64,000 bases of DNA. It comes from a virus. Made by a program: the position numbers and the translations under genes. Under the pieces are notes generated by a model that saw only the letters and a program-made list of their open reading frames with translations, did no database searches and was not told the DNA's origin. The DNA lies in IMG/VR virus record IMGVR_UViG_3300042361_000735, positions 1 through 64,000 of that record; one strand, given 5' to 3'. Of the stretch, positions 23,451 to 54,785 are shown piece after piece (the stretch's first letter is position 1; every line of letters begins with the position of its first letter).

Positions 23451-23481
23451 TAAATCTACGACCATTACTCTGCCTTCCACT
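23451..23481 (-). promoter_or_regulatory. Promoter-like site AGTG-N19-TAGATTTA
   Basis: GTGGAAGGCAGAG upstream and CGTAGATTTACG box, 17 bases before the ATG at 23433. Confidence 0.58.
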
Positions 23482-23863
23482 TCCCACTATCAATCAACTT
23501 GAAATCATCGCTATTCCTATCTATGAACTGCCATGTTGCTGATTGTAATGAGAAATTCTCATCGATGTGATTTAGTACTTGTTCAGGAGTAAAATCTGAA
23601 CAACTATATAAATCAAATTGGAACATAGGTAATTCTAAAGCATCCCACACGTGAATTGAAGCATGTGATGTAGCTAAAGTTACGGTTCCTGTTATGCCCT
23701 CATTTCCAGGTTCATTAACATAAACTGAAGTTGGTCCTGCGACAACAACCATTCCTACTTTATTTACTAATTCTCGAAACCAAATATTTAAAGTTTCTTC
23801 TGATTTTGGGGGGTTAGTGATATAACCTTTCACTAATAGGTGTAAGTGGTTTGGGGTAAACAT
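23465..23863 (-). CDS. speD: S-adenosylmethionine decarboxylase-like protein
   Basis: 132 aa. Residues 57-72 (ITGTVTLATSHASIHVW) match the prokaryotic AdoMet decarboxylase core, where the Ser of the (E)SH motif becomes the pyruvoyl group after self-cleavage (here Ser66-His67); FDLYSCSD (84-91) matches the FTCG strand with the catalytic Cys (Cys88). Length fits the bacterial class 1b enzyme. The residue before the Ser is Thr, not the usual Glu, so activity is not certain. It would make decarboxylated SAM for spermidine, a common DNA counter-ion in phage heads. Confidence 0.7.
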   Translation of the reverse strand: MFTPNHLHLLVKGYITNPPKSEETLNIWFRELVNKVGMVVVAGPTSVYVNEPGNEGITGTVTLATSHASIHVWDALELPMFQFDLYSCSDFTPEQVLNHIDENFSLQSATWQFIDRNSDDFKLIDSGKWKAE

Positions 23864-23867
23864 TGTT

Positions 23868-24500
23868 TTACTTAAATTTAAAGCCAGTTAATTTTTCAAT
23901 ATCAGCTAATGTTGCTTCATTATTCTTAAGTCCGTCTGCTTTACTTGTATTGTTATCAAATAAGAAAGCCATCCATTCGTTTGATTTCTTGAAGTATATT
24001 ACTTTCCAACACTGTGTTGGAACTGATGTTGTACCAATTTTCTTAGCTACACCTACTGACCCACACCAAACGTGTACTGAATCTTCTTTAATAGCGTAGT
24101 CGCGTACTAATGTTTCTAATGCTTTCCAATCACCACGATTGAGTGCTGGGTATTGAGCGGTCATGTTACTAAAATAAAATGATTCGTCGTTTGCCACTTG
24201 ATCACAAGCAGCGTCTGCTGCTGGGAAATTGTGTCCACGATCGAATCCTTGACCTGTATAATCTGCTTGTAAATTTGTTTCGGCTGGTAATTTAGGATCA
24301 GCTATAAATTTATCACCACGCTTGGCTTTAACAGCACATGTTAAATTTGCTCTAGTAACCCACCACTCTACCTTAACTGGATAGTGTTTTGACTTACTAT
24401 AATGTGTTGTATACGACTTGTGTGTTAATGTAACTACATCTTGACTATAAGATATAACTGCTACTAATGTTAATAGTAGGGATATTAGGCATTTCTTCAT
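23868..24500 (-). CDS. Exported DNA/RNA non-specific endonuclease (NUC1/EndA family)
   Basis: 210 aa. A signal peptide (MKKCLISLLLTLVAVISYSQ) leads to a beta-beta-alpha-Me nuclease with DRGH (87-90, His90 the general base) and FYFSNMTAQYPALNRGDWKALE-type helix start (Asn121 the metal ligand). The enzyme would act in the periplasm or outside the cell, degrading host or competitor DNA. Being exported is odd for a phage nuclease. The gene starts 4 bases past a TATTTATA box. Confidence 0.85.
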   Translation of the reverse strand: MKKCLISLLLTLVAVISYSQDVVTLTHKSYTTHYSKSKHYPVKVEWWVTRANLTCAVKAKRGDKFIADPKLPAETNLQADYTGQGFDRGHNFPAADAACDQVANDESFYFSNMTAQYPALNRGDWKALETLVRDYAIKEDSVHVWCGSVGVAKKIGTTSVPTQCWKVIYFKKSNEWMAFLFDNNTSKADGLKNNEATLADIEKLTGFKFK

Positions 24501-28610: not shown

Positions 28611-28637
28611 AAAGTTGGCCCGTCCAAAAGACAGGCC
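28611..28637 (-). terminator. Hairpin terminator
   Basis: GGCCTGTC pairs with GACGGGCC (28617-28637), followed by AACTTTCTG. It ends the lipoprotein gene at 28645. Confidence 0.6.
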
Positions 28638-28644
28638 ACGATCA

Positions 28645-28806
28645 TTACTTAGTAGTAGTTGAATCAACACTCGTCGAGTCAGCAGCTACTACAGCAGTAG
28701 TATCAGCAGACACAGCAGTTGAATCAGTTGCTACAGTCTCAGTGTTTCCAGTTCCGCAAGCAGCTAATGTTAATGCTACTACGAATACTAATGTTGCTTT
28801 TTTCAT
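28645..28806 (-). CDS. Small Ser/Thr-rich lipoprotein
   Basis: 53 aa with a lipoprotein signal (MKKATLVFVVALTLAACGTG; lipobox LAAC). The mature 36 residues are almost only Ala, Val, Asp, Ser and Thr (TETVATDSTAVSADTTAVVA), so disordered or O-glycosylated. Bacteroidota O-glycosylate D-S/T-(A/V/L/I/M/T) motifs; ATDSTA and ADTTA fit that rule. It closes the envelope gene cluster. Confidence 0.72.
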   Translation of the reverse strand: MKKATLVFVVALTLAACGTGNTETVATDSTAVSADTTAVVAADSTSVDSTTTK

Positions 28807-28841
28807 AATAATTGTGTTTTTGTTAATTAATTAAGCGAGAA

Positions 28842-28872
28842 TAAATATACGTTAAAATTTTGCCCAACCCAA
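28842..28872 (-). promoter_or_regulatory. Promoter-like site TTGG-N19-TATATTTA
   Basis: TTTGGGTTGGGCAAAAT then CGTATATTTATTC; 36-base leader to the ATG at 28806. It starts in the stop region of the gene at 28875. Confidence 0.62.
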
Positions 28873-28874
28873 AT

Positions 28875-30326
28875 TTATAGTTGTAATCTTGAACCTACAA
28901 GGAAGAAGCTAAGTATTGGTGTACCTGGTACTGTTGATAAGCTTGCTTTATAGTCAATATTAAACCCAAATCGTTTACTCAATTTAAAACTATATCCTGT
29001 GCCCACCAAACCCATTACATTGTAATTCCATGTACTGCCTGATTTGCTGTTGTACGTGTATGGCGACGCCATTAAGAATACACCTGGAGATAATGTTGAT
29101 TTTCTGCTTATTTGATATGGTTTAGTCCAGAATGCTGTTGTTGATGACATCATTGAATATGAGTAACCAACAGCTTCTTTCAATTTAATATTAATAACAG
29201 ATAAGTTATAGCCGAACGTACCATATTTTGGATGTGGTATAATGTGAGTATAACCACCAAAAGTCATATGCGTACCTGCGACGTAAGCAACGGTATATGA
29301 ATAAGCATCTATTGATTTGAGTACTCCGTTCTTAAAGTTCATATCGCTTTTATTCGCAGATAAAGCGAATGACTTTAAATCAGCCCATACCATACTTGAT
29401 ATACCCCAACTTGATTCGCCTGTAGCAGATGCTTGAGACATACTTAATGATATGATTGGTGTGAATCCACCTGTAGGATTTTGTGCTACAGTTAGATCTG
29501 AACCTATCATTATAGGATTCATTTTGGCTTGTTTCTTATCATCCTTTTTGTCTTCTTTCTTATCTTCTTTTTTCTCTTCCTTTTTTTCCTCTTTAGATTC
29601 TTCTTTCTTCTCCTCTTTTTTTTCCTCTTTAGTTTCTGATTTCTTTTCTTCTTTAGATTCGCTTTTACTTTCAGATTTAGATTCGCTCTTTGATTCTGAT
29701 TTTGTCTCTGATTTGCTTTCGCTTTTGCTGCTTCCAGATGAGCTTGATGAAGACGATTCCCCAGATGAGGATGACGAACCAGAAGATGAAGACGAGGACG
29801 AACCCGATGATGATTGGGATGAAGATCCACTCGAGGATGCTGCTGTACCGCTTGAGGCTGAAGCGCCACTTGAAGCTGCTGCTCCGCTTGATGCTGCTCC
29901 ACTTGCGGCTCCGCTTGCTGCTCCTGAAGCTGCTCCACTTGCTGCGCTTGAGGCTGCTGATGAAGCGGCTGATGACGCTGCTGAGCTTGCTGCTGATGAT
30001 GCTGCTTGTGATGCTGCCTGCGACACTGCCTGAGTCACTGTCTGTGTTACTACGGGAGTTGATACTGGACATGCTAGTGAATTGTAGGATACATACGTTG
30101 CTTGAAGCCAAGCTTGTAATTCTCCGTTTGTTACTTGCGCTGGAGTAAATGTCTTAATTTGACCATAGAATGAAACGATAGCGTTTCCGTTAACCATTGT
30201 AGTTGTAGCTACTTTGGTTTGACCAGTGCATTTGTCAATGAATGTTTGAGTGTAAACTTGTCCGTTCGCTATCTTAGCGAATAAACATATAACGATTAAT
30301 AATATACTTACTAACCATTTTTTCAT
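28875..30326 (-). CDS. Exported protein: low-complexity linker plus beta-barrel-like domain
   Basis: 483 aa from ATG 30326. Signal peptide (KKWLVSILLIVICLFAKIAN), a short folded part with two Cys, then about 160 residues of pure low complexity passing from Ala/Ser repeats (SAASSAASSAAS, GAASGAASG) to Ser/Gly, Ser/Lys/Glu and Glu/Lys/Asp-Lys blocks. The last 200 residues have alternating hydrophobic strands ending in a final aromatic/hydrophobic strand (PILSFFLVGSRLQL), as in outer-membrane barrels. Likely a surface or outer-membrane protein made in the infected host. Confidence 0.7.
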   Translation of the reverse strand: MKKWLVSILLIVICLFAKIANGQVYTQTFIDKCTGQTKVATTTMVNGNAIVSFYGQIKTFTPAQVTNGELQAWLQATYVSYNSLACPVSTPVVTQTVTQAVSQAASQAASSAASSAASSAASSAASSAASGAASGAASGAASGAASSGAAASSGASASSGTAASSSGSSSQSSSGSSSSSSSGSSSSSGESSSSSSSGSSKSESKSETKSESKSESKSESKSESKEEKKSETKEEKKEEKKEESKEEKKEEKKEDKKEDKKDDKKQAKMNPIMIGSDLTVAQNPTGGFTPIISLSMSQASATGESSWGISSMVWADLKSFALSANKSDMNFKNGVLKSIDAYSYTVAYVAGTHMTFGGYTHIIPHPKYGTFGYNLSVINIKLKEAVGYSYSMMSSTTAFWTKPYQISRKSTLSPGVFLMASPYTYNSKSGSTWNYNVMGLVGTGYSFKLSKRFGFNIDYKASLSTVPGTPILSFFLVGSRLQL

Positions 30327-30327
30327 T

Positions 30328-31155
30328 TTAGAAATTAACACCCAATCCAAAAGTTCTATTATTGATTATTGGGTCATAATCAAACTTTATTGTAAAATTT
30401 TTATAGTCGTGTAGTGCACCTATTTTTACTGTTGTAAATCTATCTAAGTACTTAGGAAATGTTATGTAACCTAAATCATCTTTACCTCTCCATTTAGCGT
30501 CTTCACTTACAGTTCCAATCATCATATGGATACCTGTTCTTTTAATTCGCTTACCTACACCAACATAAAAGCTCTGTCTTTGAACTAAGTCGTTTACCAT
30601 TGGAAAATCAACTTGAGCTATATTTCCAAAAGGAAAGAATGTTGAGTTATCTCTTAGATTACTTGCTGTATATTCTACTATAAAGTATCCTTTATTTCCT
30701 ATTGTAAAGAAACCACCCACTTGATCATCTGTTGTTCCCTGAATACCAAAGCTGATAATTGGTTTTTTGCCTTTAATAGTATCTCTCTTGCCATTATCAT
30801 ATACATAGATTCTTGCAGGTTGTCTATAACCCCAATCATTCCAGTACCACATTGGTTGCCAAAAGTTCCAACCAAATGCTGGTGCACCCCACATATCCCA
30901 TCTATTCCATCCCCAACCCCAGTTATTACCTAACCAAGGATCATTAACAATAATATTTGAGCCTGATCTTGTTCTTGCAGGTCTATTAAATTCTCTTGGT
31001 GATTCGTTTCTCCAGCTACTAACATTTCGCTGTGGAGTTGATTGTTGAAATGATTGTGTTGATACTCTAGGTGTTGACGTAGCACCTCTCCAAGTGCTAA
31101 CTTGTGATAAAGCTAATGTTGGAAGAAATACTAATAAAAATAATAAGTTTTTCAT
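30328..31155 (-). CDS. Exported beta-barrel-like protein with Trp-rich segment
   Basis: 275 aa. Signal peptide (MKNLLFLLVFLPTLALSQVS), a polar Ser/Thr/Arg stretch, a Trp-rich segment at about 80-115 (GNNWGWGWNRWDMWGAPAFG), then about 160 residues of beta strands ending NNRTFGLGVNF, a terminal pattern of outer-membrane barrels (last residue Phe). Stop and the next ATG are 1 base apart. Function unknown. Confidence 0.7.
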   Translation of the reverse strand: MKNLLFLLVFLPTLALSQVSTWRGATSTPRVSTQSFQQSTPQRNVSSWRNESPREFNRPARTRSGSNIIVNDPWLGNNWGWGWNRWDMWGAPAFGWNFWQPMWYWNDWGYRQPARIYVYDNGKRDTIKGKKPIISFGIQGTTDDQVGGFFTIGNKGYFIVEYTASNLRDNSTFFPFGNIAQVDFPMVNDLVQRQSFYVGVGKRIKRTGIHMMIGTVSEDAKWRGKDDLGYITFPKYLDRFTTVKIGALHDYKNFTIKFDYDPIINNRTFGLGVNF

Positions 31156-31156
31156 A

Positions 31157-31264
31157 CTACTTTAGTTTTGAAAGGATTGCTAAATTTTTGCTTATTTGAG
31201 CTACTGTTTTAAGTCCAGATTTTCTAGATCTCATTGCTCTTTTCTTTTTTGCTTTTGTTCCCAT
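31157..31264 (-). CDS. Very small basic protein
   Basis: 35 aa (MGTKAKKKRAMRSRKSGLKT..., ending ILSKLK), with 12 Lys/Arg. Fits exactly between the CsgG-like gene (5 bases) and the barrel gene. Could be a nucleic-acid-binding or membrane-active peptide; too short to be sure it is a gene. Confidence 0.5.
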   Translation of the reverse strand: MGTKAKKKRAMRSRKSGLKTVAQISKNLAILSKLK

Positions 31265-31269
31265 TTTAA

Positions 31270-31986
31270 TTAGTTTGGAAATACACCCTTTTTAATCATA
31301 CGAGGTAATATACGAGCACAAGCAATGTCTAATGCTTTTTTAGTCGCAATACTAACTGTTGATTGATTAAATTTAACTGGATCTATTGTTGCGTCAGATA
31401 ATAATGTTAATTCTCTTGTTGTTTTAGCTTCACCTAAACCAGATGCTGCTATAATTTCTCCTGTTTCAGCATCTGTAAAGCGTACTTGTAAGCCTAAACG
31501 TGTAACCATTGTATTTTTAACTCCGTCTTTTAAGTTTACTTCTTCGTCATCTGAAACTGACCAATCGTATACTTCAATTTCAACGAAGTAATGAGCTAAT
31601 CTAATCTTACCTCTACCATCTAATTTATCTTGGCTAATTCCAGCTTGTGATGCTTGGAATTGCTTTACCATTCTGTTTTTAATTTCTGTTTTATCTTCTG
31701 TAAATGTAAAGCGGTTAAGATTTTCAAGATATTCAAGCGTGATGTTAGCCACACCCAAACCCACTTTCTTTTCTTTGAGTTCAGGATATTGCTCATAAAG
31801 ATCATCACCAATACCGCATTTGAGAATCTGAATCGGTATTGTTTTGCCTTCATAATTTAAAAATTGACTAATGTCTATTTTGGTTTCGAATGAAGCTTTG
31901 TACTGCTCTGTCTTCGTTGATCCGACAGTTTGGGCACCCGCACTTATGGTCAGTAATAGACCTAATAATATTAATAAATTTTTCAT
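31270..31986 (-). CDS. csgG: CsgG-like curli secretion channel protein
   Basis: 238 aa. Signal peptide (NLLILLGLLLTISAGAQ) without a lipobox Cys. The C-terminal half has LGLQVRFTDAETGEIIAASG, a helix pair (NQSTVSIATKKALDIACARI) and the general CsgG alpha/beta pattern. CsgG is a nonameric outer-membrane pore that exports curli; here the usual acyl anchor is missing. Phage-borne csgG genes are known in some marine T4-like phages. A terminator hairpin lies upstream at 32002. Confidence 0.75.
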   Translation of the reverse strand: MKNLLILLGLLLTISAGAQTVGSTKTEQYKASFETKIDISQFLNYEGKTIPIQILKCGIGDDLYEQYPELKEKKVGLGVANITLEYLENLNRFTFTEDKTEIKNRMVKQFQASQAGISQDKLDGRGKIRLAHYFVEIEVYDWSVSDDEEVNLKDGVKNTMVTRLGLQVRFTDAETGEIIAASGLGEAKTTRELTLLSDATIDPVKFNQSTVSIATKKALDIACARILPRMIKKGVFPN

Positions 31987-32001
31987 ACATAAATTTGATT
32001 T

Positions 32002-32027
32002 AAAAAAAGGGAACCGAAGTTCCCTTT
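32002..32027 (-). terminator. Rho-independent terminator upstream of the csgG-like gene
   Basis: AAAGGGAAC pairs with GTTCCCTTT around TTCG, then TTTTTTT on the minus strand; follows the stop at 32038. Confidence 0.85.
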
Positions 32028-32037
32028 AGTTTTGTTT

Positions 32038-32277
32038 TTAATCTTCTTTCTTTTTATGAGAGAATTTGTCAAATGTATCAGCACCCATTCCAATACCAGT
32101 AATAATCATTACTGCATTTACTAGTTCTGCTGATGGAGCAAAATCTGCATGTGAAAATGAATTTAACATCATTGTTACACATAAAAACATTGCACCTACA
32201 AACGCGATAACCGGTTTTACTGAAGTTGATCCTCTTTCATCTTTGAATAGATCAATAACCCACTGTTTGAAATTCAT
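32038..32277 (-). CDS. Two-helix membrane protein, possible holin
   Basis: 79 aa: charged N-terminus (FKQWVIDLFKDERGSTSVKP), helices at about 21-40 and 53-70, and a basic tail (FDKFSHKKKED). Class II holin layout. Sits upstream of a terminator. Confidence 0.65.
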   Translation of the reverse strand: MNFKQWVIDLFKDERGSTSVKPVIAFVGAMFLCVTMMLNSFSHADFAPSAELVNAVMIITGIGMGADTFDKFSHKKKED

Positions 32278-32295
32278 ACTTTTAATTTTTAATGG

Positions 32296-32904
32296 TTAGT
32301 GAGATTCGTCGTAAGCATCTTTTAATAGACCACATTTTTGGCATTCTAGTTCACCATCATTGTCTGAGTCACCCCATTCATGTTCGCAATATCTATGTGC
32401 TTTAAGTTCGTGTTCTAATTTTAATTTAGCCATTTCCTGCTCGTGCTCTTGTTGGTCAGCTTCTAACTTTTGATCATGTTCTTGTTGATCAGCAGCTAAT
32501 TCAAAGTTTTGTTTGTTTTCAACTACAGCTAAATCTCTAGCGGCTGCTGCACCTGCTACGAAAGCATCTGGAATTAATGGAGTAAATGGTTTGTTTGATT
32601 CTTTAATGTCATTAACACTACCTAGTGCTACACCATCTTCTTCATCCATTTTCTGTACTAACATTTTATCTTTGTCAGTATCACTGAACCAGTAGTCGAT
32701 GATTTTACCATAGCTACCAATGAAGGCACCTAATAATAACATTAATAATTCTTTCCATGCTGCGGCCATTGGTGTTTGTAAACTGATTGCTGCGAATATA
32801 CCAGCAATGATTACAATGAATCCACCTAATACCATAGCTGTGATGTACCATCTGCGGGACATCATTTTATTTAATAGTTCTCTAAATCCTGTATTTGGTT
32901 GCAT
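32296..32904 (-). CDS. Membrane protein with coiled coil and zinc ribbon
   Basis: 202 aa. Two hydrophobic helices (22-42, 48-66), a Ser/Asp linker, a long Gln/Glu/His coiled coil (ADQQEHDQKLEADQQEHEQE) with an exact 10-11-residue repeat, and a C-terminal zinc site (YCEHEW...CQKCG). Holin-like helices joined to a cytoplasmic stalk is an unusual build. Confidence 0.7.
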   Translation of the reverse strand: MQPNTGFRELLNKMMSRRWYITAMVLGGFIVIIAGIFAAISLQTPMAAAWKELLMLLLGAFIGSYGKIIDYWFSDTDKDKMLVQKMDEEDGVALGSVNDIKESNKPFTPLIPDAFVAGAAAARDLAVVENKQNFELAADQQEHDQKLEADQQEHEQEMAKLKLEHELKAHRYCEHEWGDSDNDGELECQKCGLLKDAYDESH

Positions 32905-32921
32905 ACTTTATTTTTTATAAA

Positions 32922-33230
32922 TTACCACTGTGGTTCTTTTTCTTTAAATTCGTCACCGTCTTTTTTCTTAACTGGAGCTGCTGGTTTAGCTGGTTCTGCT
33001 GCTTTCTCTTTAATGATTACAGTTTTACCACCTGCTGCTTGTTGTTGTTGGTTGCTGTTAGTAATGTTAATTACTGGAGCTGCTGCTGGTGCAGGAGCTG
33101 CTTCATCACCACCACCTGTTAATTTGTTAGTAATAAATCCACCTACACCTAGTGTAACTGTACTAACTAGACCAATGATAATGTTTTTAAACGATTTACC
33201 AGTTGATTCTTGTTCTACTTCTTCTGACAT
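32922..33230 (-). CDS. Membrane protein with Ala/Pro/Gln-rich tail
   Basis: 102 aa. Acidic start, one hydrophobic helix (IIIGLVSTVTLGVGGFITNK), then an Ala/Pro-rich linker (AAPAPAAAPVINITNSNQQQ) and a charged end (KKKDGDEFKEKEPQW), as in TonB-like or periplasmic linker proteins. Confidence 0.68.
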   Translation of the reverse strand: MSEEVEQESTGKSFKNIIIGLVSTVTLGVGGFITNKLTGGGDEAAPAPAAAPVINITNSNQQQQAAGGKTVIIKEKAAEPAKPAAPVKKKDGDEFKEKEPQW

Positions 33231-33242
33231 GTTATTTAATTT

Positions 33243-33617
33243 TTATAGTTTGTTAAAATCTGTGATTCCTAATTGATTACCATTAGCATCGAATAATCCA
33301 ATTCTGTACGCTGATGGTGGTAATGCTGATGTGTATACTTTTAAGATATTATCACCAACGATTACGTTTACTGTTTCTTTTGATACTACTCTGTTTGAGA
33401 TATCAAATATTCTAATTGTAACTGACTGCGCTACATCACTTTTAACATTCATAGCAACTTCGTTTGTTACGAATGGTGATTGTAATTTAATACCTACTGC
33501 GCTAGTTATTTTTAATTCAGCGTTTGTTACTGGGGGTTGTGGTGTTGGTACATCCACTTTAGTACATCCTACAAATAGGATAGCTGCAACTGCTAATATT
33601 TTCTTCATTGCGTTCAT
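33243..33617 (-). CDS. Lipoprotein with a T9SS CTD-like beta domain (copy 1)
   Basis: 124 aa (ATG 33608 is an alternative). Lipobox LFVGC followed by TKVDVPTPQPP; the mature domain (SVTIRIFDISNRVVSKETVN, LKVYTSALPPSAYRIGLFD) has the strand order and phrasing of type A C-terminal sorting domains of the type IX secretion system. Paralog of the next gene. Confidence 0.68.
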   Translation of the reverse strand: MNAMKKILAVAAILFVGCTKVDVPTPQPPVTNAELKITSAVGIKLQSPFVTNEVAMNVKSDVAQSVTIRIFDISNRVVSKETVNVIVGDNILKVYTSALPPSAYRIGLFDANGNQLGITDFNKL

Positions 33618-33619
33618 CT

Positions 33620-33955
33620 TTAATTAATTTTAATGGCGGTTTTACCTATTTGAGTACGGGATTGGTCTTCCAGTACTAGATATAAATATTTAACTGGTAG
33701 CGAACTAGTGTATATTTTTAATTTGTTTTGGCCAACTTTACCACTAATACGCTCCCTTGTGATTACGTTTTGGGTTTGGTCTAACATTGTTAAGGTATAT
33801 GTACCTGCTGCTTTCAAATCAAAGTAAATATCTCCACCATTAGACACAGTAGATTCAGCAACGCTGAATATATCCTGTACCGTTGGTGGTTGTGGTGGTA
33901 CGTCTACCTTTTTACAAGCTGATAATAGTAATAATATGAATAGTAATTTTTTCAT
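33620..33955 (-). CDS. Lipoprotein with a T9SS CTD-like beta domain (copy 2)
   Basis: 111 aa. Lipobox LLLSACKK followed by VDVPPQPP; mature part has YTLTMLDQTQNVITRERISG and KLKIYTSSLPVKYLYLVLED, the same plan as copy 1. The two lie 2 bases apart and share the (K)KVDVPxxQPP start after the Cys, so a tandem duplication is likely. Confidence 0.7.
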   Translation of the reverse strand: MKKLLFILLLLSACKKVDVPPQPPTVQDIFSVAESTVSNGGDIYFDLKAAGTYTLTMLDQTQNVITRERISGKVGQNKLKIYTSSLPVKYLYLVLEDQSRTQIGKTAIKIN

Positions 33956-36228
33956 TATTTTACTTTAACTTTTAATTGTACGCCTGCTTTATTAACGGCA
34001 TCAGTAGCACCTATTGATATTAAACCTAATATATTATCAAGTTTAGTTGTTGATGTGAATGTTATTTTATATTCAGTAGTATTATCTAATGTAGTACTAC
34101 CATCACTAATTAGTGAGCCTAAATTTATAAAGCTATTTTTATTAGTACCATAGTTCATTGGACTACCCTTAGTTTTAAATTCTACACCTTCAAATTTCAA
34201 TACTGAATTATCATAATTTAATTGGAATTGGGTTCCCACTACTTGTTGTTGTAGTGGGTCTAAAGTAATGTAAGCATATATTTTATCACTTACCTCAGTA
34301 ACAATTGAAGCGTTAATTTCATTTGGTACAGATGTAGTACCTACAGACATAATTGTTACGTTATTTGAAGCAGGTATTGCTGAGTGGGATAAGTTTACAT
34401 CACCAACCCAAGTTACATCTATATTGTAAGTGTTGTTAAGTGTACCTGTATTTAGGCTGAATGGGTATAAATTTCTTGTATAGTTAAACTGTGTATTCCA
34501 ATTTGATTTAGTTATAGCGTCGTAATCCGATTTACCATACAATTTCATTAAGTACGTTAATGTTGAATATTCTGTAAGTGATTTTACTCCTGTTAAATGT
34601 TGTAATAGTCTATAAGTATCTGCTTCATTGAATACACCATTGCCATCAACATCAGCATTCATATATTGAATACCATACGCAAACTCATTACCAGTTTCAT
34701 TTCCGAATATACCACCATTTGATAATTCTTTAAATGCTATAAACACATCTGATACAGTTACTATACTATTATATAATGTATTTAAATCAGTTTGATTAGT
34801 TGTTAATTCAATACCATGTTGTTTAAACATTGTATTTGGTGCAAATGAATAATCTGCTCTAAATGCATACCACCCATCTTGTAATCGTATATTATTTTGA
34901 AATGAACTTGCTGTTACTTTACTAGCCAAATTAACATTTCCAGGTACTACCCATTGTTTCCACCATCCATTAAAATCCATTGGTGCGATTGGACCTTCGT
35001 ATATATCAAATAACTTTACATATTTTACTGTGTTTAAGTTAATACCAGTCCCACTAAATACTCTTTCATCGATTTGCAATCTATGTCCGTTTCTTGATGT
35101 TTCATATGGGTTTATAAGTGACCATTCTACTTGTCCTGGTACTATAGTTGCTTTAATACCATCATTAACTTTTAGGGTATCTAATAGGCTCGTTGCATCC
35201 ACTTTACCTAAACCACTTAATGGTCTAGTTATACTACTTACTTCATTCCAAGTATTGTTTACAAATGTATTTGCTTTAGTTGAGAATCTAGTTTCATCTA
35301 CATTACCTCCAAAATCAAAATTAAAGCGTGCTGTTAATACTTCACCATTTGAGTGTGTTACACTATTAGTATAGAATTCAGTGAATGTAGCATCATCAGG
35401 ATTAGTCCAAGTTCCATATTCAATTACATAAGGATTCCAAAAACCATTTGGTAAATCATTCCATTGAGAACCACCACTCCATTTAGTTACTGCGTAATCT
35501 TCATTACCACTATTGTTCGGTTCACCAGGTGCCCAGTTATTGTATTGACCTGGTATGTTTCCATTTAATTGACCATTATTGATTTTAATTAAAGTTCCTT
35601 TTTCAGGACCTGCATCAATTGTCCATCTTGCTTCACTTGCTTCATCGGTTAATGCAAACCAAATATTACCTTGTGGTACATTATTAAAAATAAAAGCATC
35701 TTCATCGGCTGAAGTTATTGTTACTAAATATCCTTGCTGGCCTTTGAATGTTGTTAATTCAGCGGCCGCTCTTGCTCCTGTATAAGTTGCCGTTGTTGAT
35801 ATTGGTCTATAAAAGTGTCCGTTTGTTCCATTGTAAAAGAAACCAGTTGGGTTTACAGTTGCTGCTACCGATAATTGAACATTACCTCTTACCGAACCTG
35901 TGTTTACTTTTAGAGATGCTAATGCCGTATTGATATTAGCCATTGTTCCTGTTACCACTAAACGAGTTTTATTACCTGCTAAAGTGAATCCACTTGCTGC
36001 GGTTAGACCTGTTGTTGTAGTTAGGTTAAATGTTGTACCAGTTGGTGGATTAACTAAACTGATTGATGCTAGTAAATTAGCAGTTGAGCTAAAACCACTT
36101 AAACTAAACCCACTAGCATCTTGCCCTGCTGTAGAAGGTAAGAACGATTTAGAGTCCGGAGCAGATACACTCTGTCCGAACCCTAAAAATGATATCAATA
36201 AGAATAATGTAACTAATATTTGTTTCAT
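33955..36228 (-). CDS. Large secreted protein: C-type lectin, dockerin-like and cohesin-like segments
   Basis: 757 aa from ATG 36228. Signal peptide (KQILVTLFLLISFLGFGQ). Residues about 135-270 show a C-type lectin domain: YTGARAAAELTTFKG, WFALTDEASEARW, EPNN (236-239) and WND (256-258). Residues about 525-547 read DVDGNGVFNEADTYRLLQHL, like half a dockerin with a calcium loop. The last 120 residues (FQLNYDNSVLKFEGVEFKTK) look like a cohesin. A sugar-binding, calcium-dependent surface protein is the natural reading; virion adhesin or host-surface protein cannot be told apart. Confidence 0.72.
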   Translation of the reverse strand: MKQILVTLFLLISFLGFGQSVSAPDSKSFLPSTAGQDASGFSLSGFSSTANLLASISLVNPPTGTTFNLTTTTGLTAASGFTLAGNKTRLVVTGTMANINTALASLKVNTGSVRGNVQLSVAATVNPTGFFYNGTNGHFYRPISTTATYTGARAAAELTTFKGQQGYLVTITSADEDAFIFNNVPQGNIWFALTDEASEARWTIDAGPEKGTLIKINNGQLNGNIPGQYNNWAPGEPNNSGNEDYAVTKWSGGSQWNDLPNGFWNPYVIEYGTWTNPDDATFTEFYTNSVTHSNGEVLTARFNFDFGGNVDETRFSTKANTFVNNTWNEVSSITRPLSGLGKVDATSLLDTLKVNDGIKATIVPGQVEWSLINPYETSRNGHRLQIDERVFSGTGINLNTVKYVKLFDIYEGPIAPMDFNGWWKQWVVPGNVNLASKVTASSFQNNIRLQDGWYAFRADYSFAPNTMFKQHGIELTTNQTDLNTLYNSIVTVSDVFIAFKELSNGGIFGNETGNEFAYGIQYMNADVDGNGVFNEADTYRLLQHLTGVKSLTEYSTLTYLMKLYGKSDYDAITKSNWNTQFNYTRNLYPFSLNTGTLNNTYNIDVTWVGDVNLSHSAIPASNNVTIMSVGTTSVPNEINASIVTEVSDKIYAYITLDPLQQQVVGTQFQLNYDNSVLKFEGVEFKTKGSPMNYGTNKNSFINLGSLISDGSTTLDNTTEYKITFTSTTKLDNILGLISIGATDAVNKAGVQLKVKVK

Positions 36229-36229
36229 A

Positions 36230-37858
36230 CTATTCAACTATTAATTCTATCTTTTTACCAGTCGCATCAACTGCATCTGCTAATACTGTATAGAATAAAC
36301 CTGCAGTGTTACTTAAAGGTACTTTAGGCGTGAATATTAATTTATATGGAGTACCAACTTTAATTCTAGCTGTCTTTAATTGATCAATAGAACCAAATGT
36401 TAATCTACCATCATTGTGTGTTGAGAAATTTGTAATTGTGCTACCAGCATCAAATATAACATCTGTTAATGTTAATTTAGTACTATCATATTGCATAATT
36501 ACTTCTAAACCAGCTAAATCCGCTTTAGTTAAGTTTGCTGATAATGTTACTTTGTTATTTTCAATTGCTGAGGTTAAACTTAATGTTGCTTTCTCTAGTA
36601 CTGGTGCTTTGTAAGACATAGTACCAATTTTTATAGTTTCACCTGTACTATTTGTAAATACACCACTTGATATTCTTGCAGCGATTGTATCAGGATGAGA
36701 TGAATGTGACCAATCTAAGTCACCACCCCAAGCAAATACAGCATCTACTGTTTGTGCAGGTTGAGTAATATACACTCTATATCTTGAAGTACCATCTAAC
36801 CAACTTTGATTTAATAATCCACTATGCCATCTCCAAGATGTAGATGTTGATGTTGGAATGAAAGCATTAGCAGATACATCAATTCCCATTACGTGTGCAA
36901 ATGAATAATAAGCATCTGCTTCAGTAAATGTCATATCGTTTCTAGTCACATTACCAATTCTTCTTTCAAGTGTAGGTCTTGTAAAGAATGTACTATTACC
37001 TGCTATATCAGTTTGAGAATGTCCTAAAAATGCTCTATATGCATCTGATACAGTTATTACATTATTCATCCAGCTTTTAGATGATGCGTTTCCAACGAAT
37101 ACACCTAACGAATCACCAACTTTAACACCTGTTGTGAATATAGCCTCACCACTAGCATCTAATGCTTTCTGTAAAATTGGTTGTTGTGACCAATCAATAT
37201 CACCACTACCATCAGTTTTTAATCTCATTAACTGAACTGAATGATCACTGATATTGTATCCAGATGGAAATAATACTCTTACTTTAAAGAAAGATGTATT
37301 ACCACTTACTCCAGTAATTGATAAAGGAACAGCAGTTGTTCTAACAAACGGAATATTATTACCAGTTGCACTGTCTAACGCATATGATAAATCTAAATCA
37401 TGAAAATTCTCATATACATTTTGGTCTTTAAGAATATATCTTTGAGTTGCTATTATACCATCTATACTTCTGTCTGCTCTTTGGATTGCTAATTGTCCAA
37501 CATTCCAATCTGCGTTTACAGCATACGACCAAGGTGTAGCTTGATACTGACCATACAGCGATGTATCGCTTATATTTGATTTAGGTGTAAATCTATAGTT
37601 AGTCCAACCAGTATAGAATGTTTGAGCTTGACTACCCTGTGAGAATGTAGTTGATAAATAAGTTAAAGCCTTATTGTTAAATTGGTATCTTAACCAGAAA
37701 TAACGTGGTTTAGTTATACCCTTATCAACTGTATAAGTTACAGTAACTGTATCACCTACTTTATAAGGTCCAGCAGAAATAGATTGGTTTACAACTATCT
37801 GAGCATTAGTTGTTATGGATACTATTAGTATCCCAATAATTAGTAATAGTTTTTTCAT
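36230..37858 (-). CDS. Large secreted protein with cohesin-like domains
   Basis: 542 aa. Signal peptide (KKLLLIIGILIVSITTNAQ). N-terminal domain with YKVGDTVTVTYTVDKG and strands as in cohesins; an acidic helix pair around FTEADAYYSFAHVM similar to the dockerin-like part of its neighbour; C-terminal cohesin-like domain (AGLEVIMQYDSTKLTLTDVI, PYKLIFTPKVPL). Same build and same C-terminal domain as the 757-aa protein, so the two are probably partners or paralogs. Confidence 0.68.
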   Translation of the reverse strand: MKKLLLIIGILIVSITTNAQIVVNQSISAGPYKVGDTVTVTYTVDKGITKPRYFWLRYQFNNKALTYLSTTFSQGSQAQTFYTGWTNYRFTPKSNISDTSLYGQYQATPWSYAVNADWNVGQLAIQRADRSIDGIIATQRYILKDQNVYENFHDLDLSYALDSATGNNIPFVRTTAVPLSITGVSGNTSFFKVRVLFPSGYNISDHSVQLMRLKTDGSGDIDWSQQPILQKALDASGEAIFTTGVKVGDSLGVFVGNASSKSWMNNVITVSDAYRAFLGHSQTDIAGNSTFFTRPTLERRIGNVTRNDMTFTEADAYYSFAHVMGIDVSANAFIPTSTSTSWRWHSGLLNQSWLDGTSRYRVYITQPAQTVDAVFAWGGDLDWSHSSHPDTIAARISSGVFTNSTGETIKIGTMSYKAPVLEKATLSLTSAIENNKVTLSANLTKADLAGLEVIMQYDSTKLTLTDVIFDAGSTITNFSTHNDGRLTFGSIDQLKTARIKVGTPYKLIFTPKVPLSNTAGLFYTVLADAVDATGKKIELIVE

Positions 37859-38509
37859 TTATTTTTCTAATAGTTTTGTGATTAATTTATCACAACCCTT
37901 CTTAAGTGCATTACTTAAGCTTGTTTGGTTGAATTTACCACCTTCATCTACTATTAGAGTTGACATAGAGATTTCAGATGATGATTCTTCAACTATTACC
38001 TCTTTCTCTTTAATACCGTCTTTGTATAGTATACCTTTTAAGCGAATAACGACTTCTTGTTCGTTTTTATGAAATACAGACACATTTTTCTTAGTAGTTA
38101 AAACATCTAAATAAATGATTTCTACTTTAATTTTTTGTTCAGCATCTGGGGATAGGTTTAATCCTTTTTCTTGTAAGTACTCTTCTAGTACGTTTTTAAC
38201 ACCGAACTCTAAGTTGCGGTTACCTGCTAATTTACCGATAACTACTTTGTTAGTTACGCTTTGAACCCAGATATGTTCATCTGCGTTATACCAAATGTTG
38301 TTTGGGTCGTTTTTCCACCTACCGTCAATTTTCCAGTTAATTTCATTAACCATTTGTAGGTTTTCTTCGTGTGATTTGAAAATCTCACAATATACGAAGT
38401 ACAACTGAGCTACTAGGGCAGCCATAATAATGACTCCAACAAGCATAAAAAAACCCAGTACTAATTTGTCGCGCATGCCTATGGCGATAGCACTAATTTT
38501 TTGTTTCAT
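37859..38509 (-). CDS. Membrane-anchored protein heading the envelope cluster, unknown
   Basis: 216 aa. One transmembrane helix at about 15-40 (KLVLGFFMLVGVIIMAALVA), then a soluble alpha/beta domain. The C-terminal region (NQTSLSNALKKGCDKLITKL) resembles the NQSTVSIATKKALDIACARI helix of the CsgG-like protein, so it may be a distant relative or a partner of it. First gene after the tmRNA terminator, 24 bases past a TATTTATA box. Confidence 0.65.
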   Translation of the reverse strand: MKQKISAIAIGMRDKLVLGFFMLVGVIIMAALVAQLYFVYCEIFKSHEENLQMVNEINWKIDGRWKNDPNNIWYNADEHIWVQSVTNKVVIGKLAGNRNLEFGVKNVLEEYLQEKGLNLSPDAEQKIKVEIIYLDVLTTKKNVSVFHKNEQEVVIRLKGILYKDGIKEKEVIVEESSSEISMSTLIVDEGGKFNQTSLSNALKKGCDKLITKLLEK

Positions 38510-38545: not shown

Positions 38546-38573
38546 AAAAAAAGCAACCAGTTACGGTTGCTTT
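38546..38573 (-). terminator. tmRNA terminator
   Basis: AAAGCAACC pairs with GGTTGCTTT around GTAACT, followed by a run of seven T. It begins 7 bases past the tmRNA 3' end. Confidence 0.9.
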
Positions 38574-38579
38574 AAGTTG

Positions 38580-38945
38580 TGGAGATGACCGGAGTCGAAC
38601 CGGTGTCTCTATAACGAACAATAATACCAACGTCTCACACGCTTAGTTTAACAGTTTAATCTTACTACTGTTCCAAAAGAATTGGGGCCATATGGTTAGT
38701 ATAGCGTTCCACCAACCCATTTAACGTTTGGGTAAACTGCTTGTAACTTCTGTTCCTAGGATGTTACACCCGACGCTAATTAAGCCGCTAATGCGTACTC
38801 GTTCGCACCTACGAAAGACATCATGTCGTCGAAGGTCATAGTAGATAATTCTACAGTTATTGTTTCGCAAGGGTTTAAGGACATTCATGCTTTGTCCGCG
38901 TGTGGTACTACCTCCAGATTATAGATCAAATACCTGGACATCCCC
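38580..38945 (-). ncRNA. ssrA: tmRNA (trans-translation RNA)
   Basis: 366 nt. The 3' end has a perfect T-arm (ACCGG TTCGACT CCGGT) and acceptor strand CATCTCC with discriminator A, which pairs with GGGGATG at the 5' end (one G-U). The tag frame runs GGT GCG AAC GAG TAC GCA TTA GCG GCT TAA (38809-38780), giving (G)ANEYALAA, close to the tags of Bacteroidota. CCA is not encoded. It rescues ribosomes on broken mRNA and tags the product for ClpXP-type proteolysis; a ClpP-like gene lies 3.5 kb upstream. A perfect terminator follows. Confidence 0.93.
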
Positions 38946-39251
38946 TGATTTTTTACTTTTTGATTTCTTATCAATAAATTTCTTGATCTCAGCGCACAAT
39001 TCGTATTCTTCAAGTGCGATTAGATCGTTTAGGCAGTTGCTTAATAATTCGGTATACTGCGATTTATCAATAGTAAAAATCAAACCATCTGTATTTTTGA
39101 ACGTGATATCAAATATATCGATGGTTTTTTTATTTCGTTTAGCTGCACTAAGTACACATTTGACCATCTTCATGATCATATCTGAATCTCTACTCTTTAA
39201 TAATGAGTAAAATTCATCTGAATTTTTCAAGTATAAGCAGTGACATGCCAT
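38919..39251 (-). CDS. Small protein overlapping the tmRNA, unknown (paralog of 41785)
   Basis: 110 aa from ATG 39251; the longer frame runs into tRNA-Leu and is rejected. The second half (TIDIFDITFKNTDGLIFTID, then SQYTELLSNCLNDLIALEEY, CAEIKKFI) parallels the 100-aa protein at 41785 (SLFEV..., EEYNRCAECRDLI). Its last 8 codons and stop are the first 27 bases of the tmRNA. So RNase P cutting of the tmRNA 5' end would remove its stop codon. Confidence 0.7.
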   Translation of the reverse strand: MACHCLYLKNSDEFYSLLKSRDSDMIMKMVKCVLSAAKRNKKTIDIFDITFKNTDGLIFTIDKSQYTELLSNCLNDLIALEEYELCAEIKKFIDKKSKSKKSGDVQVFDL

Positions 39252-39266
39252 GTATATAATTATTTG

Positions 39267-39352
39267 TGCCTCAGGCGAGAATCGAACTCGCACTCGCATT
39301 GCTGCGAACAGGATTTTAAGTCCTGCGTGTCTACCTATTTCACCACCAAGGC
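39267..39352 (-). tRNA. tRNA-Leu(UAA)
   Basis: 86 nt. Acceptor GCCTTGG/CTGAGGC, Leu-type D-arm (GGTGGTGAAATAGGTAGACAC), anticodon stem CAGGA/TCCTG with loop CTTAAAA, long variable arm and T-arm GCGAG TTCGATT CTCGC. Lies 5 bases downstream of the odd tRNA-like RNA. Confidence 0.92.
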
Positions 39353-39357
39353 ATTTG

Positions 39358-39516
39358 CTGTAGGGGCTGGGGTTGAACCAGCACGCTGCGATTCAATGTA
39401 AGACAAATAAGCCGGCTTTGTGGTCAACCCATATCTTACATCTGTCTCTGATCAGCACCCCCTAGACGAGAGGGCACGTCTGCCACGAGGAGCTACCTCT
39501 ATTCCGCCACCCTACA
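39358..39516 (-). ncRNA. 159-nt tRNA-like RNA of unknown type
   Basis: Ends form a tRNA: acceptor TGTAGGG/CCCTACA (7 bp) and T-arm GCTGG TTCAACC CCAGC; the 5' part GTGGCGGAATAGAGGTAG is a Leu-type D-arm. Between lie about 110 nt instead of about 55: a GGCA-GACG-TGCC hairpin, a possible anticodon arm (CCCTC/GGGGG, or CTCTC/GGGTG with loop GTCTAGG giving CUA), and a long arm with a perfect 8-bp stem ATGTAAGA/TCTTACAT. It could be a tRNA with a giant variable arm, an intron-bearing tRNA, or a new tRNA-like RNA. Its first bases overlap the stop of the 75-aa gene. Confidence 0.6.
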
Positions 39517-39739
39517 GTGTATTGTTTCTTCGTCTTGCTTCTTCAGCTTCTTTATAAATTCTTATCCAAGTTAAAGTAACGTCAACTACAGCTAATACTG
39601 GTGCTAGGAAAAGTACCATAACTCCATCTAATCCTGGGGCTGAATCTAATCCACCACCTCTTAAGTCAGTTGCTCTGTAGCGTTTTACTAATTGATAAAA
39701 GCAATAAATAACGCTTATTGCGTAAATTGTCCAAAACAT
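39512..39739 (-). CDS. Small membrane protein inside the RNA cluster, unknown
   Basis: 75 aa with two hydrophobic helices (2-17, about 41-57) and a basic loop (KRYRATDLRGGG), ending KEAEEARRRNNTL. Its TAG stop is part of the 5' end of the tRNA-like RNA (ACACTG TAG GG). It may belong to the RNA operon or only be read through it. Confidence 0.65.
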   Translation of the reverse strand: MFWTIYAISVIYCFYQLVKRYRATDLRGGGLDSAPGLDGVMVLFLAPVLAVVDVTLTWIRIYKEAEEARRRNNTL

Positions 39740-39770
39740 AATTTTTTATTTTTAAGATAATAATCTAATG

Positions 39771-39841
39771 TTGCCCCTCAAGGATTCGAACCTCAACAAA
39801 CAGTACCAAAAACTGTCGTACTACCGTTATACTAAAGGGCA
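39771..39841 (-). tRNA. tRNA-Gln(UUG)
   Basis: 71 nt. Acceptor TGCCCTT/AGGGGCA (one G-U), anticodon stem ACAGT/ACTGT with loop TTTTGGT, T-arm TTGAG GTTCGAAT CCTTGA type. Confidence 0.9.
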
Positions 39842-39846
39842 GTTTG

Positions 39847-39933
39847 CGGAAGCTCAGGGATTCGAACCCCAGATACCGTTTCCAGTATGACGGTTTTCAA
39901 GACCGTTCCATTCAACCACTCTGGCAAGCTTCC
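39847..39933 (-). tRNA. tRNA-Ser(UGA)
   Basis: 87 nt. Acceptor GGAAGCT/AGCTTCC, anticodon stem ACGGT/ACCGT with loop CTTGAAA, class II variable arm, T-arm CTGGG TTCGAAT CCCTG type. Confidence 0.92.
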
Positions 39934-40040
39934 ATTTGGTATAGCACCCCTATACCTGGCTCATATTAGGTCGTTAGCCTGTGCTTCCACGGCCGTGGTT
40001 GAGCTTTTGCACTTGGTTTTCCGATTACGATTCGGCTTGG
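39934..40040 (-). other. Structured spacer between tRNA-Ser and tRNA-Thr
   Basis: 107 bases without a gene. Holds inverted repeats: GGTATAG-GGGTG-CTATACC (7-bp arms), the palindrome CCACGGCCGTGG, CCGA...TCGG and GGCT...AGCC. No tRNA T-arm is present, so it is not a standard tRNA; it may be a tRNA remnant or processing spacer. Confidence 0.5.
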
Positions 40041-40113
40041 ATCCAGAAACAAGAATCGAACTTGCGACCTACTGATTACAAATCAGTTGCTCTACCTGCT
40101 GAGCTATTCTGGA
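40041..40113 (-). tRNA. tRNA-Thr(UGU)
   Basis: 73 nt. Acceptor TCCAGAA/TTCTGGA, D-arm TAGCTCAGCAGGTAGAGCA, anticodon stem ACTGA/TCAGT with loop TTTGTAA, T-arm GCAAG TTCGATT CTTGT. Confidence 0.93.
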
Positions 40114-40118
40114 GTGTG

Positions 40119-40190
40119 TACTCAGTACGGGATTCGAACCCGTATTACATCCGTGAAAGGGATGTGACCTAACCCTTAGTCGAACTGAGC
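40119..40190 (-). tRNA. tRNA-Glu(UUC)
   Basis: 72 nt. Acceptor GCTCAGT/ACTGAGT, anticodon stem CATCC/GGATG with loop CTTTCAC, T-arm ACGGG TTCGAAT CCCGT. First RNA of the cluster. Confidence 0.92.
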
Positions 40191-42987: not shown

Positions 42988-44160
42988 TTATGACTTACAA
43001 AGTAATTTTGGTGTGTGTAATTCTAAACTGCTAATTGCTATATTAAATATGTCTAGTTCAAATACACCTATTTCACCTGATTCTGTTAGTATTTCTGGGA
43101 GTTGTTGAATTAATTGATAGCTTTGTTGTGTTAGTTTAGTAGCATCAAATTCAACTATTACATCATCATAATCTGTTGGGTTTTGAGATTTTATATTCAT
43201 GACTCTCGTTAATAGATCCATAGTCGTATTTGGTTGTTCTTCATTTACATAGCGAGAAATAAATGAATCATTATCAATATAGATCCTGTCACACCATGGT
43301 TCTAATGCACTGAGTAATTCATAACTGCAATTATGTACTGCAAATCCAATGTTATATTTGTTAGGTATAATTGGTTTCATGTATGGATCATGCTTAACAA
43401 AATGTCCCCATTTGCGAATGAAATTTCTACCGTTTTTAGTTGTAGTATAAAGCCATTCATTGCTATTTTTACCAGCACCACCACCAACATGCTTATTAAA
43501 TCTACTACCTCTACTTGTAAAGTGATAAACTAAACCATCCCATGATTGTATTACTTTATATCCACTTAATACAAAGCGATTAAATAGATCACTGTCTTCT
43601 TTAGATTGAGGAGCAAATAATTCATCATGTCCTAGAAAATCAGATTTATACATACACCATGGAGCAAATATACCTTCTGTTGTTTTATCTTTATTTTCTT
43701 CAATTGTTTTTAAACAAAATTCATTAAATTCATTCCATTTAAATTCATTATCTTCAACTCCAAAATCTTGAGTTATTTTTTCTACTCCTGGAGGGTGAAG
43801 TGGTGGTTCTATTCTAGTTGCACTTACTACTACTCCTGGTTTTAGATGTTTTAATATATTTTCATCTAATTTAGGTGCAGCTACCATATCAGCGTGAAAT
43901 GCAAATATAATTTCTGTTCTAGCCATTTCAATGCCTTTATCAAACATACCTACAATACCAATACGTTCTGGTCCTGGATTGTGGTATGTGATTAAATCCT
44001 CATCATTAAGTGATTTAATCCACTCTTGAGTACCATCTATACTAGCATCATCTAAAACTAATACTTCATGTTTAGTTTCTAAATTGCGAATCGATTTATA
44101 TGCTAGTTGAAGAAATTCTAAATTATTTCTACTAGGTAATACAAATGTTATTTTTTGCAT
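42988..44160 (-). CDS. Family 2 glycosyltransferase with extra C-terminal domain
   Basis: 390 aa. GT-A start (KITFVLPSRNNLEFLQLAYK, VLVLDDASIDGTQEW) with the donor-binding DDAS and FAFHADMV as the metal (DxD-like) site. Residues about 270-390 form a separate domain of unknown role. Overlaps the epimerase gene by 13 bases. Last gene of the glycan cassette. Confidence 0.8.
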   Translation of the reverse strand: MQKITFVLPSRNNLEFLQLAYKSIRNLETKHEVLVLDDASIDGTQEWIKSLNDEDLITYHNPGPERIGIVGMFDKGIEMARTEIIFAFHADMVAAPKLDENILKHLKPGVVVSATRIEPPLHPPGVEKITQDFGVEDNEFKWNEFNEFCLKTIEENKDKTTEGIFAPWCMYKSDFLGHDELFAPQSKEDSDLFNRFVLSGYKVIQSWDGLVYHFTSRGSRFNKHVGGGAGKNSNEWLYTTTKNGRNFIRKWGHFVKHDPYMKPIIPNKYNIGFAVHNCSYELLSALEPWCDRIYIDNDSFISRYVNEEQPNTTMDLLTRVMNIKSQNPTDYDDVIVEFDATKLTQQSYQLIQQLPEILTESGEIGVFELDIFNIAISSLELHTPKLLCKS

Positions 44161-48366: not shown

Positions 48367-48367
48367 T

Positions 48368-50789: not shown

Positions 50790-50791
50790 TG

Positions 50792-52217: not shown

Positions 52218-52246
52218 TTTTATTTATTTATACTACTTTTCCAATT

Positions 52247-54784: not shown

Positions 54785-54785
54785 A

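Follow-up and report, generated by a model that had tools for sequence, protein, structure and literature searches.

The window analyzed here, 64,000 nucleotides that form part of a 69.8-kb virus record (IMG/VR record IMGVR_UViG_3300042361_000735), carries at positions 28645-38509 on the minus strand a module of 12 same-strand genes (g1 to g12) with mostly exported products. The reading that we favor, at about even confidence, is that this module makes an infected Bacteroidota cell display a glycan-binding protein complex on its surface. It combines an intact-looking C-type lectin with EPN and WND motifs, real cohesins, dockerin-type segments and export-type N-termini, and related viruses share its synteny and exchange its parts. 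The main comparative point is a swap between a fused type IX secretion system (T9SS) sorting domain and separate lipoproteins that resemble the C-terminal domain (CTD) of T9SS cargo: half of the relatives have a real sorting domain on their cohesin protein, and nearly all others carry the separate CTD-like lipoproteins. The module is real, conserved and under-described; its combination is unusual for a phage, and most of its parts are members of known families or resemble them. A first-pass annotation made from the sequence had placed about 13 exported and membrane genes here; place and exported character hold, and the gene count is 12. The features on which the argument turns are as follows.

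33955..36237, minus strand: g3, 760 aa, exported lectin-dockerin-cohesin protein; the ATG start is probably at 36228
35404..35850, minus strand: C-type lectin domain of g3, residues 130-278, with EPN and WND motifs
34558..34794, minus strand: dockerin-like region of g3, residues 482-560, with one canonical calcium loop at residue 529
33958..34332, minus strand: cohesin domain of g3, residues 636-760
36230..37858, minus strand: g2, 542 aa, exported, with a degenerate dockerin-like middle and a C-terminal cohesin
36233..36646, minus strand: cohesin region of g2 (approximate limits; Pfam cohesin stretch 440-491), used as a hidden Markov model seed
33620..33955, minus strand: g4, 111 aa, CTD-like lipoprotein with a lipobox
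33243..33617, minus strand: g5, 124 aa, CTD-like lipoprotein with a lipobox, a DUF3244 match and a weak Por_Secre_tail match
31270..31986, minus strand: g9, 238 aa, exported CsgG-fold protein without a lipobox

Related loci were taken as the best 80 per scan of 477, 92 and 113 relatives. The resulting 243 loci were narrowed to 210 with g9, 157 with distinct g9 DNA and finally 72 with more than 7 kb before and 5 kb after g9 (65 from g9 searches, five from the g2 search, and two that are the record of the cultured phage Immuto and the metagenome-assembled genome (MAG) contig L163); phylogeny links these loci, and counts over them are not independent observations. In 36/72 loci the cohesin protein carries the sorting domain as a fusion, one or two separate CTD-like lipoproteins are found in 34/72, no locus has both, and two (L181 and L060) have neither. 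On a g9 tree built by a quick method, the exchange between fused and separate forms needs at least three switches, and the fused forms of L022/L024 and L075 fall inside the lipoprotein clade. Of all the evidence that the parts work together, this exchange is the strongest. TIGR04183 scored above its cut-off in eight of the nine cohesin proteins with a CTD that were tried (L075 being the exception) and in lipoprotein L068. Such proteins (n=55) comprise 36 of about 630 aa and 19 of about 243 aa; a gene like Immuto gp014 lies directly upstream of all 19 short ones, and a gp014 part is contained in the chain of 31 of the 36 long ones.

The window's record (G000) has no PF18962 match, so that g2 and g3 are without a T9SS sorting domain. 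In record G002 a weak PF18962 match (21 bits) was seen in a 113-aa open reading frame (ORF) away from the module. Alignment of three lipoprotein groups to a set of T9SS CTDs with hhalign gave 94.4%, 84.8% (the g4 group) and 79.7% (the g5 group), which bears out the earlier description of g4 and g5 as tandem lipoproteins with type IX CTD-like domains. Among 20 aligned lipoproteins, 10 matched DUF3244 and four matched Por_Secre_tail. A signal for the surface export of lipoproteins has been described as C-X-K-(D/E)2-X (PMC5080379), and the lipoproteins with a lipobox carry lysine at +3 in 97/103 and an acidic residue at +5 in 73/103. Lipobox counts here, like those of signal peptides, dockerin loops and curlin repeats below, come from simple patterns of our own.

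Stand-alone CTD-like lipoproteins could also act as decoys. Superinfection exclusion might then be the whole purpose of the module, with receptors masked or the host T9SS jammed, and a nuclease destroying DNA that still enters; this account overlaps with surface display, and as a full explanation we consider it unlikely. Besides the lipoproteins themselves, it is favored by glycosyltransferase genes elsewhere in the window, by a weak match of the g9 model to TraT and by homologs of an exported EndoG-type nuclease in 24/72 loci; yet the nuclease was not found in the same locus in 48/72, the TraT match (Z 6.8) lies in a range that the tool calls common, the fused CTD-cohesin forms resemble cargo rather than decoys, and jamming needs no lectin. 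A PHROG match of g4 and g5 to 'Cor superinfection exclusion' (E 0.083 and 0.021) is confined to their signal peptides.

The AlphaFold model of g3, built from a 34-sequence alignment, has a pLDDT of 78. Residues 130-278 have a C-type lectin fold (VIA Z 11.9 against C-type lectins), with pLDDT values of 48-66 in blocks between about residues 190 and 270. The Pfam family Lectin_C (PF00059) scores g3 alone at 21.3 bits, slightly below the cut-off of 22.6, and at E 0.01 matches 32 of the 34 aligned g3-type proteins, g3 among them. EPN and WND motifs, which denote mannose-type sugar binding, are invariant across these 34 sequences; among lectin ORFs, 87/95 have EPN and 84/95 have WND or WSD. The lectin is not hypervariable, since at a mean pairwise identity of 0.76 it ranks with the N-terminal domain (0.75) as best conserved in g3, ahead of the middle (0.51). 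Judged from these motifs, it looks intact for sugar binding, and it may bind a sugar.

The same conserved motifs, together with the logic of surface anchoring, would suit adhesion, in which a displayed lectin ties infected cells to siblings or particles and so brings progeny into contact with new hosts. 'Sibling capture' of this kind has been proposed for pelagimyophages with CsgGF (PMC7029224). As a complete account, which again overlaps with display, adhesion is not likely: the ligand of the lectin is only putative, and the authors who described the CsgGF phage Melnitz saw no clumping, though that phage has another module (PMC9004378).

The C-terminal part of g3 (residues 636-760) has a cohesin fold (Z 14.3, root-mean-square deviation 2.2 over 124 residues) and matches Cohesin (PF00963) at E 2.4e-6, with 23.5 bits against a cut-off of 24.1. 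At E 0.001 this family was matched in 11/11 records and in seven of them above the cut-off, the window's record not among these. The g2 match (E 0.0032) is below cut-off, and a sequence search of solved structures with g2 returned nothing at the limits used. The g2 protein is 21-23% identical to the L035 and L075 proteins and is kin of the proteins of about 630 aa that end in a T9SS sorting domain (alignment A3). The dockerin-like region of g3 matches Dockerin_1 at E 4.2e-4, below cut-off, and its residues D529, F536 and D540 are invariant in the 34-sequence alignment. By our pattern, the canonical dockerin calcium loop is present in g3 and Immuto gp013 and absent from g2, gp014 and gp015; by ORF class it occurs in 29/39 with a C-type lectin-like domain (CTLD) only, 30/55 with cohesin and CTD, 27/56 with CTLD and cohesin, and 2/101 with cohesin only. 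The first-pass annotation had assigned lectin, dockerin-like and cohesin-like segments to both large secreted proteins. Its cohesins are borne out by the fold of g3 and by the family matches; its lectin is confined to g3, with none in g2 by Pfam, and of its dockerin segments only that of g3 has the canonical calcium loop, with a family match that falls short of the cut-off.

The remaining genes of the module are listed here.

37859..38509, minus strand: g1, 216 aa, N-terminal membrane segment followed by a YajG-like (Lipoprotein_16) domain
32922..33230, minus strand: g6, 102 aa, one membrane segment, a Pro/Lys-rich arm and a C-terminal Trp
32296..32904, minus strand: g7, 202 aa, hydrophobic membrane region followed by a hydrophilic C-terminal part (alignment A5)
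32038..32277, minus strand: g8, 79 aa, small membrane protein (alignment A4)
30328..31155, minus strand: g10, 275 aa, exported with a signal, C-terminus barrel-like by eye, accessory
28875..30326, minus strand: g11, exported, with a two-Cys N domain, a low-complexity linker and a beta-rich, barrel-like C domain
28645..28806, minus strand: g12, 53 aa, small lipoprotein with a lipobox

The whole module lies on one strand in all 72 distinct loci. Genes g6 and g9 and the N domain of g11 each occur in 72/72 (also with window-only seeds), g1 in 69, g8 in 53, g7 in 42 and g10 in nine. Cohesin was found in 71/72, a count that rests on joint seeding from the window and Immuto; the g11 C domain reached 72/72 with joint seeds and 40/72 with the window-type seed alone. 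The lectin, at 47/72, is less constant than g6, g9 and the g11 N domain. Outside the module, 446 kb of the same loci yielded four cohesin, one CTLD, one g6, two g1 and two g8 matches. Where window and Immuto proteins had been paired, both seeded the family profile, which to some extent predetermines the matches of Immuto. When the seeds came from the window alone and Immuto was excluded, Immuto was still reached by g6 (8.5e-28), the g11 N domain (1.8e-20), g1, g9 and the lectin, which also find 26-32 of the 32 loci of its clade. The g1 profile drifted onto g9 in 139 ORFs, which were assigned by the better E-value.

The cultured relative is Flavobacterium phage vB_FspM_immuto (Immutovirus immuto), which infects Flavobacterium sp. 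LMO8 and carries the module as gp013-gp019, where the annotation names no more than a lectin, a cohesin and hypothetical proteins. Its isolates (four records) were the only matches to four queries among 50,697 phage records, and a pattern-based scan of 84,980 genomes for a host origin of g9, which distant host relatives would escape, gave two loci, both MAG contigs. As in the window, homologs of the lectin, cohesin, g6, g9 (53% identity), g11 (N domain) and g1 stand in one run, gp016, gp017, gp018 and gp019 corresponding to g6, g9, g11 and g1, with g11 reached by its N domain only when window-only seeds are used. Unlike in the window, the lectin, gp014 and the anchor each have a gene of their own, the cohesin protein includes the sorting domain, and separate CTD-like lipoproteins were not found. 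gp013 matches Lectin_C above cut-off (3e-15) and has a dockerin loop; gp015, with its T9SS type A sorting domain, matches Cohesin (5.9e-9) and Por_Secre_tail (2.4e-8), both above cut-off. The counterpart of gp014 in fused relatives is clearer, with Dockerin_1 matched at E 7.6e-5, below cut-off, in a 633-aa ORF of record G006, and a gp014-like ORF of G005 has a cohesin match above cut-off.

Display could proceed as follows. The module proteins would leave the cytoplasm by Sec, and the host T9SS would carry the cohesin protein to the surface; in the clade of the window, the CTD-like lipoproteins g4 and g5 might hold it there instead. Dockerin-cohesin contacts would join the parts, and g6, g9, g11 and g1 may form an envelope assembly (a CsgG-fold ring, a barrel-like protein and a membrane tether) for export or placement. 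The displayed lectin would then bind sugar. The likeliest gain, though held at well under even confidence within the display reading, would be surface masking that blocks rival phages, perhaps aided by the exported EndoG-type nuclease; next, and with a fainter chance, infected cells would adhere to siblings or to particles. A more specific proposal, which we hold to be less likely than not, is a viral surface organelle resembling a cellulosome, placed by an envelope machine in which g9 would be the CsgG-fold ring, g11 the barrel-like protein with its long linker, g6 the membrane tether with the near-invariant terminal tryptophan and g1 a YajG-like component. Its anchor might be a cohesin with a T9SS tag or the CTD-like lipoproteins, its adaptor a gp014-type protein with a cohesin-like and a dockerin-type segment, and its terminal module a lectin with a dockerin. 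The broader earlier suggestion, that the genes remodel the infected cell surface, is upheld insofar as the module is exported, surface-oriented and apart from the baseplate genes, with a well-grounded lectin and cohesin.

Several observations weigh against display. No CTLD was found near the module in 25/72 loci. The dockerin parts are weakly marked: Dockerin_1 (PF00404) was above cut-off in 0/11 records and matched at E 0.001 in two, Immuto having no match, and the dockerin-like end of gp014 was seen by eye only, with no loop match. In g3, cohesin and dockerin share one chain and could make an inner contact, and g2 of the window lacks both a T9SS sorting domain and a canonical dockerin loop, which leaves its placement hard to account for. 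The export signal of g4 and g5 is partial (C-x-K-V-D, with the lysine and one acid), and a tree-aware test would need more than three CTD switches. Of the 32 loci in the Immuto clade, the two cohesin seeds from the window alone find just five and six, and the C domain of g11 in its window form finds one; the kinship of the cohesins is therefore at family level, and the C domains of g11 may not be the same. Both the display reading and its organelle form are weakened because gp014 is without the canonical loop and because the counts of the cohesin and of the g11 C domain lean on joint seeds.

The g9 protein had been read as a CsgG-like pore. Its predicted structure (an AlphaFold monomer model, pLDDT 76.8) confirms the fold, with eight CsgG entries on top (VIA Z 10.7-11.4, 162-180 residues aligned), and the top viral model match is a phage protein named CsgG. 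By sequence the relation fails. CsgG (PF03783) was matched at E 0.001 in 0/11 records in a search that was positive in four control genomes, and hhalign of g9 to the E. coli and HTVC008M CsgG pair gave a probability of 0.4 against 0.1-0.6 for five shuffles; a sequence search of solved structures with g9 returned nothing at the limits used. Membership of the CsgG family was therefore rejected and the fold kept; of the profile matches to CsgG, cohesin and lectin proposed as a check, only the last two were obtained. None of 38 members of alignment A1 has a lipobox, and a looser pattern with internal starts allowed flagged 48/157 g9 ORFs, that of the window not among them. Hairpin spans are 33/30 residues against 39/39 in E. 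coli and 39/40 in HTVC008M, counted between anchors of our own choice, and the g9 model is of a monomer. The apparently shortened hairpins, the missing lipobox and the lack of a sequence relation to CsgG make a curli pore unlikely. Pfam found no CsgF among the 10 cluster proteins scanned (g6 and g12 lay outside that scan), and our pattern found no curlin array in the cluster, with one lone match in g3.

These results bear on a role in lysis or as a gated pore, in which g9 would form a CsgG-type pore and g6, g7 and g8 would act like holins or spanins, timing release. Such a role has been proposed for the CsgGF of Melnitz (PMC9004378), and the fold of g9 and the small membrane proteins g6 to g8 agree with it. 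We nevertheless hold it to be quite improbable: besides the divergence of g9, an Immuto-type endolysin, the only type searched, lies in the locus in only 4/72, no lysis family appears among the matches of g7 and g8 (g6 was not scanned, and its Immuto counterpart gp016 has no Pfam match), and such a role leaves the lectin, cohesin and T9SS parts without a use. The csgGF-like secretion or lysis route of the first-pass annotation is accordingly not supported.

The two beta-barrel-like proteins of that annotation, g10 and g11, keep this character by sequence appearance, with a weak DUF5777 match in only 2/29 g11-type sequences; the g11 C domain returned nothing in a sequence search of solved structures at the limits used. 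The g11 linker is 39-268 residues long (median 135, n=128). In the g6 family the last residue is W in 152/153 members, though the remainder of the tail varies. Gene g1 matches PF03923 at E 2.3e-5 (24.6 against a cut-off of 25) and is homologous to Immuto gp019 (blast 9e-5). PHROG searches with 10 cluster proteins gave weak matches only, the best (E 0.0024) to the low-complexity stretch of g11; with the families of g8 and g7 the best were E 0.0024 and 8.3e-5, naming no function beyond 'membrane protein'.

The window derives from a large tailed phage, marked by baseplate wedge, DNA polymerase, GroEL and glycosyltransferase genes, and locus L003 of a 179-kb contig matches all 12 genes at 100%. 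The claim of signal peptides or lipoboxes on most products was sustained. By our heuristic, 9/12 cluster genes have a signal-type N-terminus against 4/64 other minus-strand ATG ORFs of at least 90 aa (Fisher p 9e-7), the cluster genes being counted without a size filter and g1, one of the nine, rather resembling a membrane anchor. Such N-termini, like the T9SS sorting domain and the lipoboxes, argue against virion decoration, in which the lectin and cohesin proteins would be tail or capsid adhesins. C-type lectin folds are known in phage adhesins (FGS domain; PMC7824862), but the baseplate wedge gene (754-2583) is a long way from these genes, and we judge this account very improbable.

All 12 genes are on the minus strand with intergenic gaps of -1 to 114 bp, and the run spans between a tmRNA (38579-38945) and position 28616. 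Three terminator-like hairpins were noted.

38550..38573, minus strand: terminator-like hairpin upstream of g1, after the tmRNA
32006..32027, minus strand: terminator-like hairpin between g8 and g9
28616..28638, minus strand: terminator-like hairpin after g12

The hairpins suggest two units, g1-g8 and g9-g12. Terminator-like sites in the region (eight against a shuffle mean of 4.8, sd 2.5) are barely above chance and consensus promoters (31 against 46.3) show no excess; the framing hairpins are therefore weak evidence, and no timing of expression is claimed. Directly upstream of the module lie the tmRNA, with tag ANEYALAA, and five tRNAs (38579-40190, minus strand); the CsgGF phage Melnitz likewise has a tmRNA (PMC9004378). 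Elsewhere on the minus strand of the window, an exported nuclease with a signal-type N-terminus (23868-24500, phrog_14168 E 1.3e-23) could cut incoming DNA; it is related (blast 3e-13) to Immuto gp012, annotated as endonuclease G (NUC1), whose gene sits just before the lectin gene. An S-adenosylmethionine decarboxylase-like gene (23465-23863, phrog_3125 E 8.7e-16), a phage-encoded GroEL (59391-61013, phrog_5725 E 4e-150) and glycosyltransferase-like and aminotransferase genes (42988-56243), possibly a second surface- or DNA-modifying module, were also seen on that strand.

Cellulosomes are scaffolds built from cohesin and dockerin. The module would work like one in joining anchor, adaptor and terminal module through these domains; it differs in that the terminal part is a lectin rather than an enzyme, the anchor is a T9SS sorting domain or lipoprotein, the genes are viral and the dockerins fall below the Pfam cut-off. 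The PelC/PelBC exopolysaccharide exporter places a CsgG-type ring beside a barrel protein, and g9 resembles it in fold (PelC Z 9.2, PelBC 8.3); unlike that system, no polysaccharide synthesis gene was seen among the 12 genes and g11 has no solved-structure match. A PelC-like ring beside another barrel may fit the g9 model better than a curli pore. CsgG and CsgF have been described in marine phages, with ideas of sibling capture and lysis, and the csgGF clusters of pelagimyophages and Melnitz resemble the module in encoding a CsgG-fold protein with exported neighbors (PMC7029224, PMC9004378). HTVC008M differs in having a CsgF gene, full hairpin spans and a lipobox (by eye), none of which the window module has, and there is no sequence relation. 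Near its CsgF and CsgG genes, gp016 and gp018 (L245, 8871-9557 and 10638-11963) look curlin-repeat-like by eye; our curlin pattern found only one repeat in each. Cryophage, like the module, encodes proteins with T9SS type A sorting domains, on three genes; there the tagged proteins are an endoglucanase, a glycoside hydrolase and a PA14 protein and the genes are variable, whereas here one cohesin protein is tagged within a conserved module (PMC7468147). No such module is described by title among the literature matches listed, which leave subscription papers mostly uncovered, and absence from print is not claimed.

Phages are known to change the surface of their hosts through single proteins or through enzymes that modify sugars. 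If display is correct, a conserved multi-gene viral module would present a lectin by way of the host type IX secretion system and connectors of the cohesin type, and a meaning would attach to several 'hypothetical' genes found repeatedly in public viral contigs. The cultured pair of Immuto and Flavobacterium sp. LMO8 carries the module, which is therefore testable now. It would represent a new viral way to rebuild the host surface, controlling what the infected cell binds or excludes.

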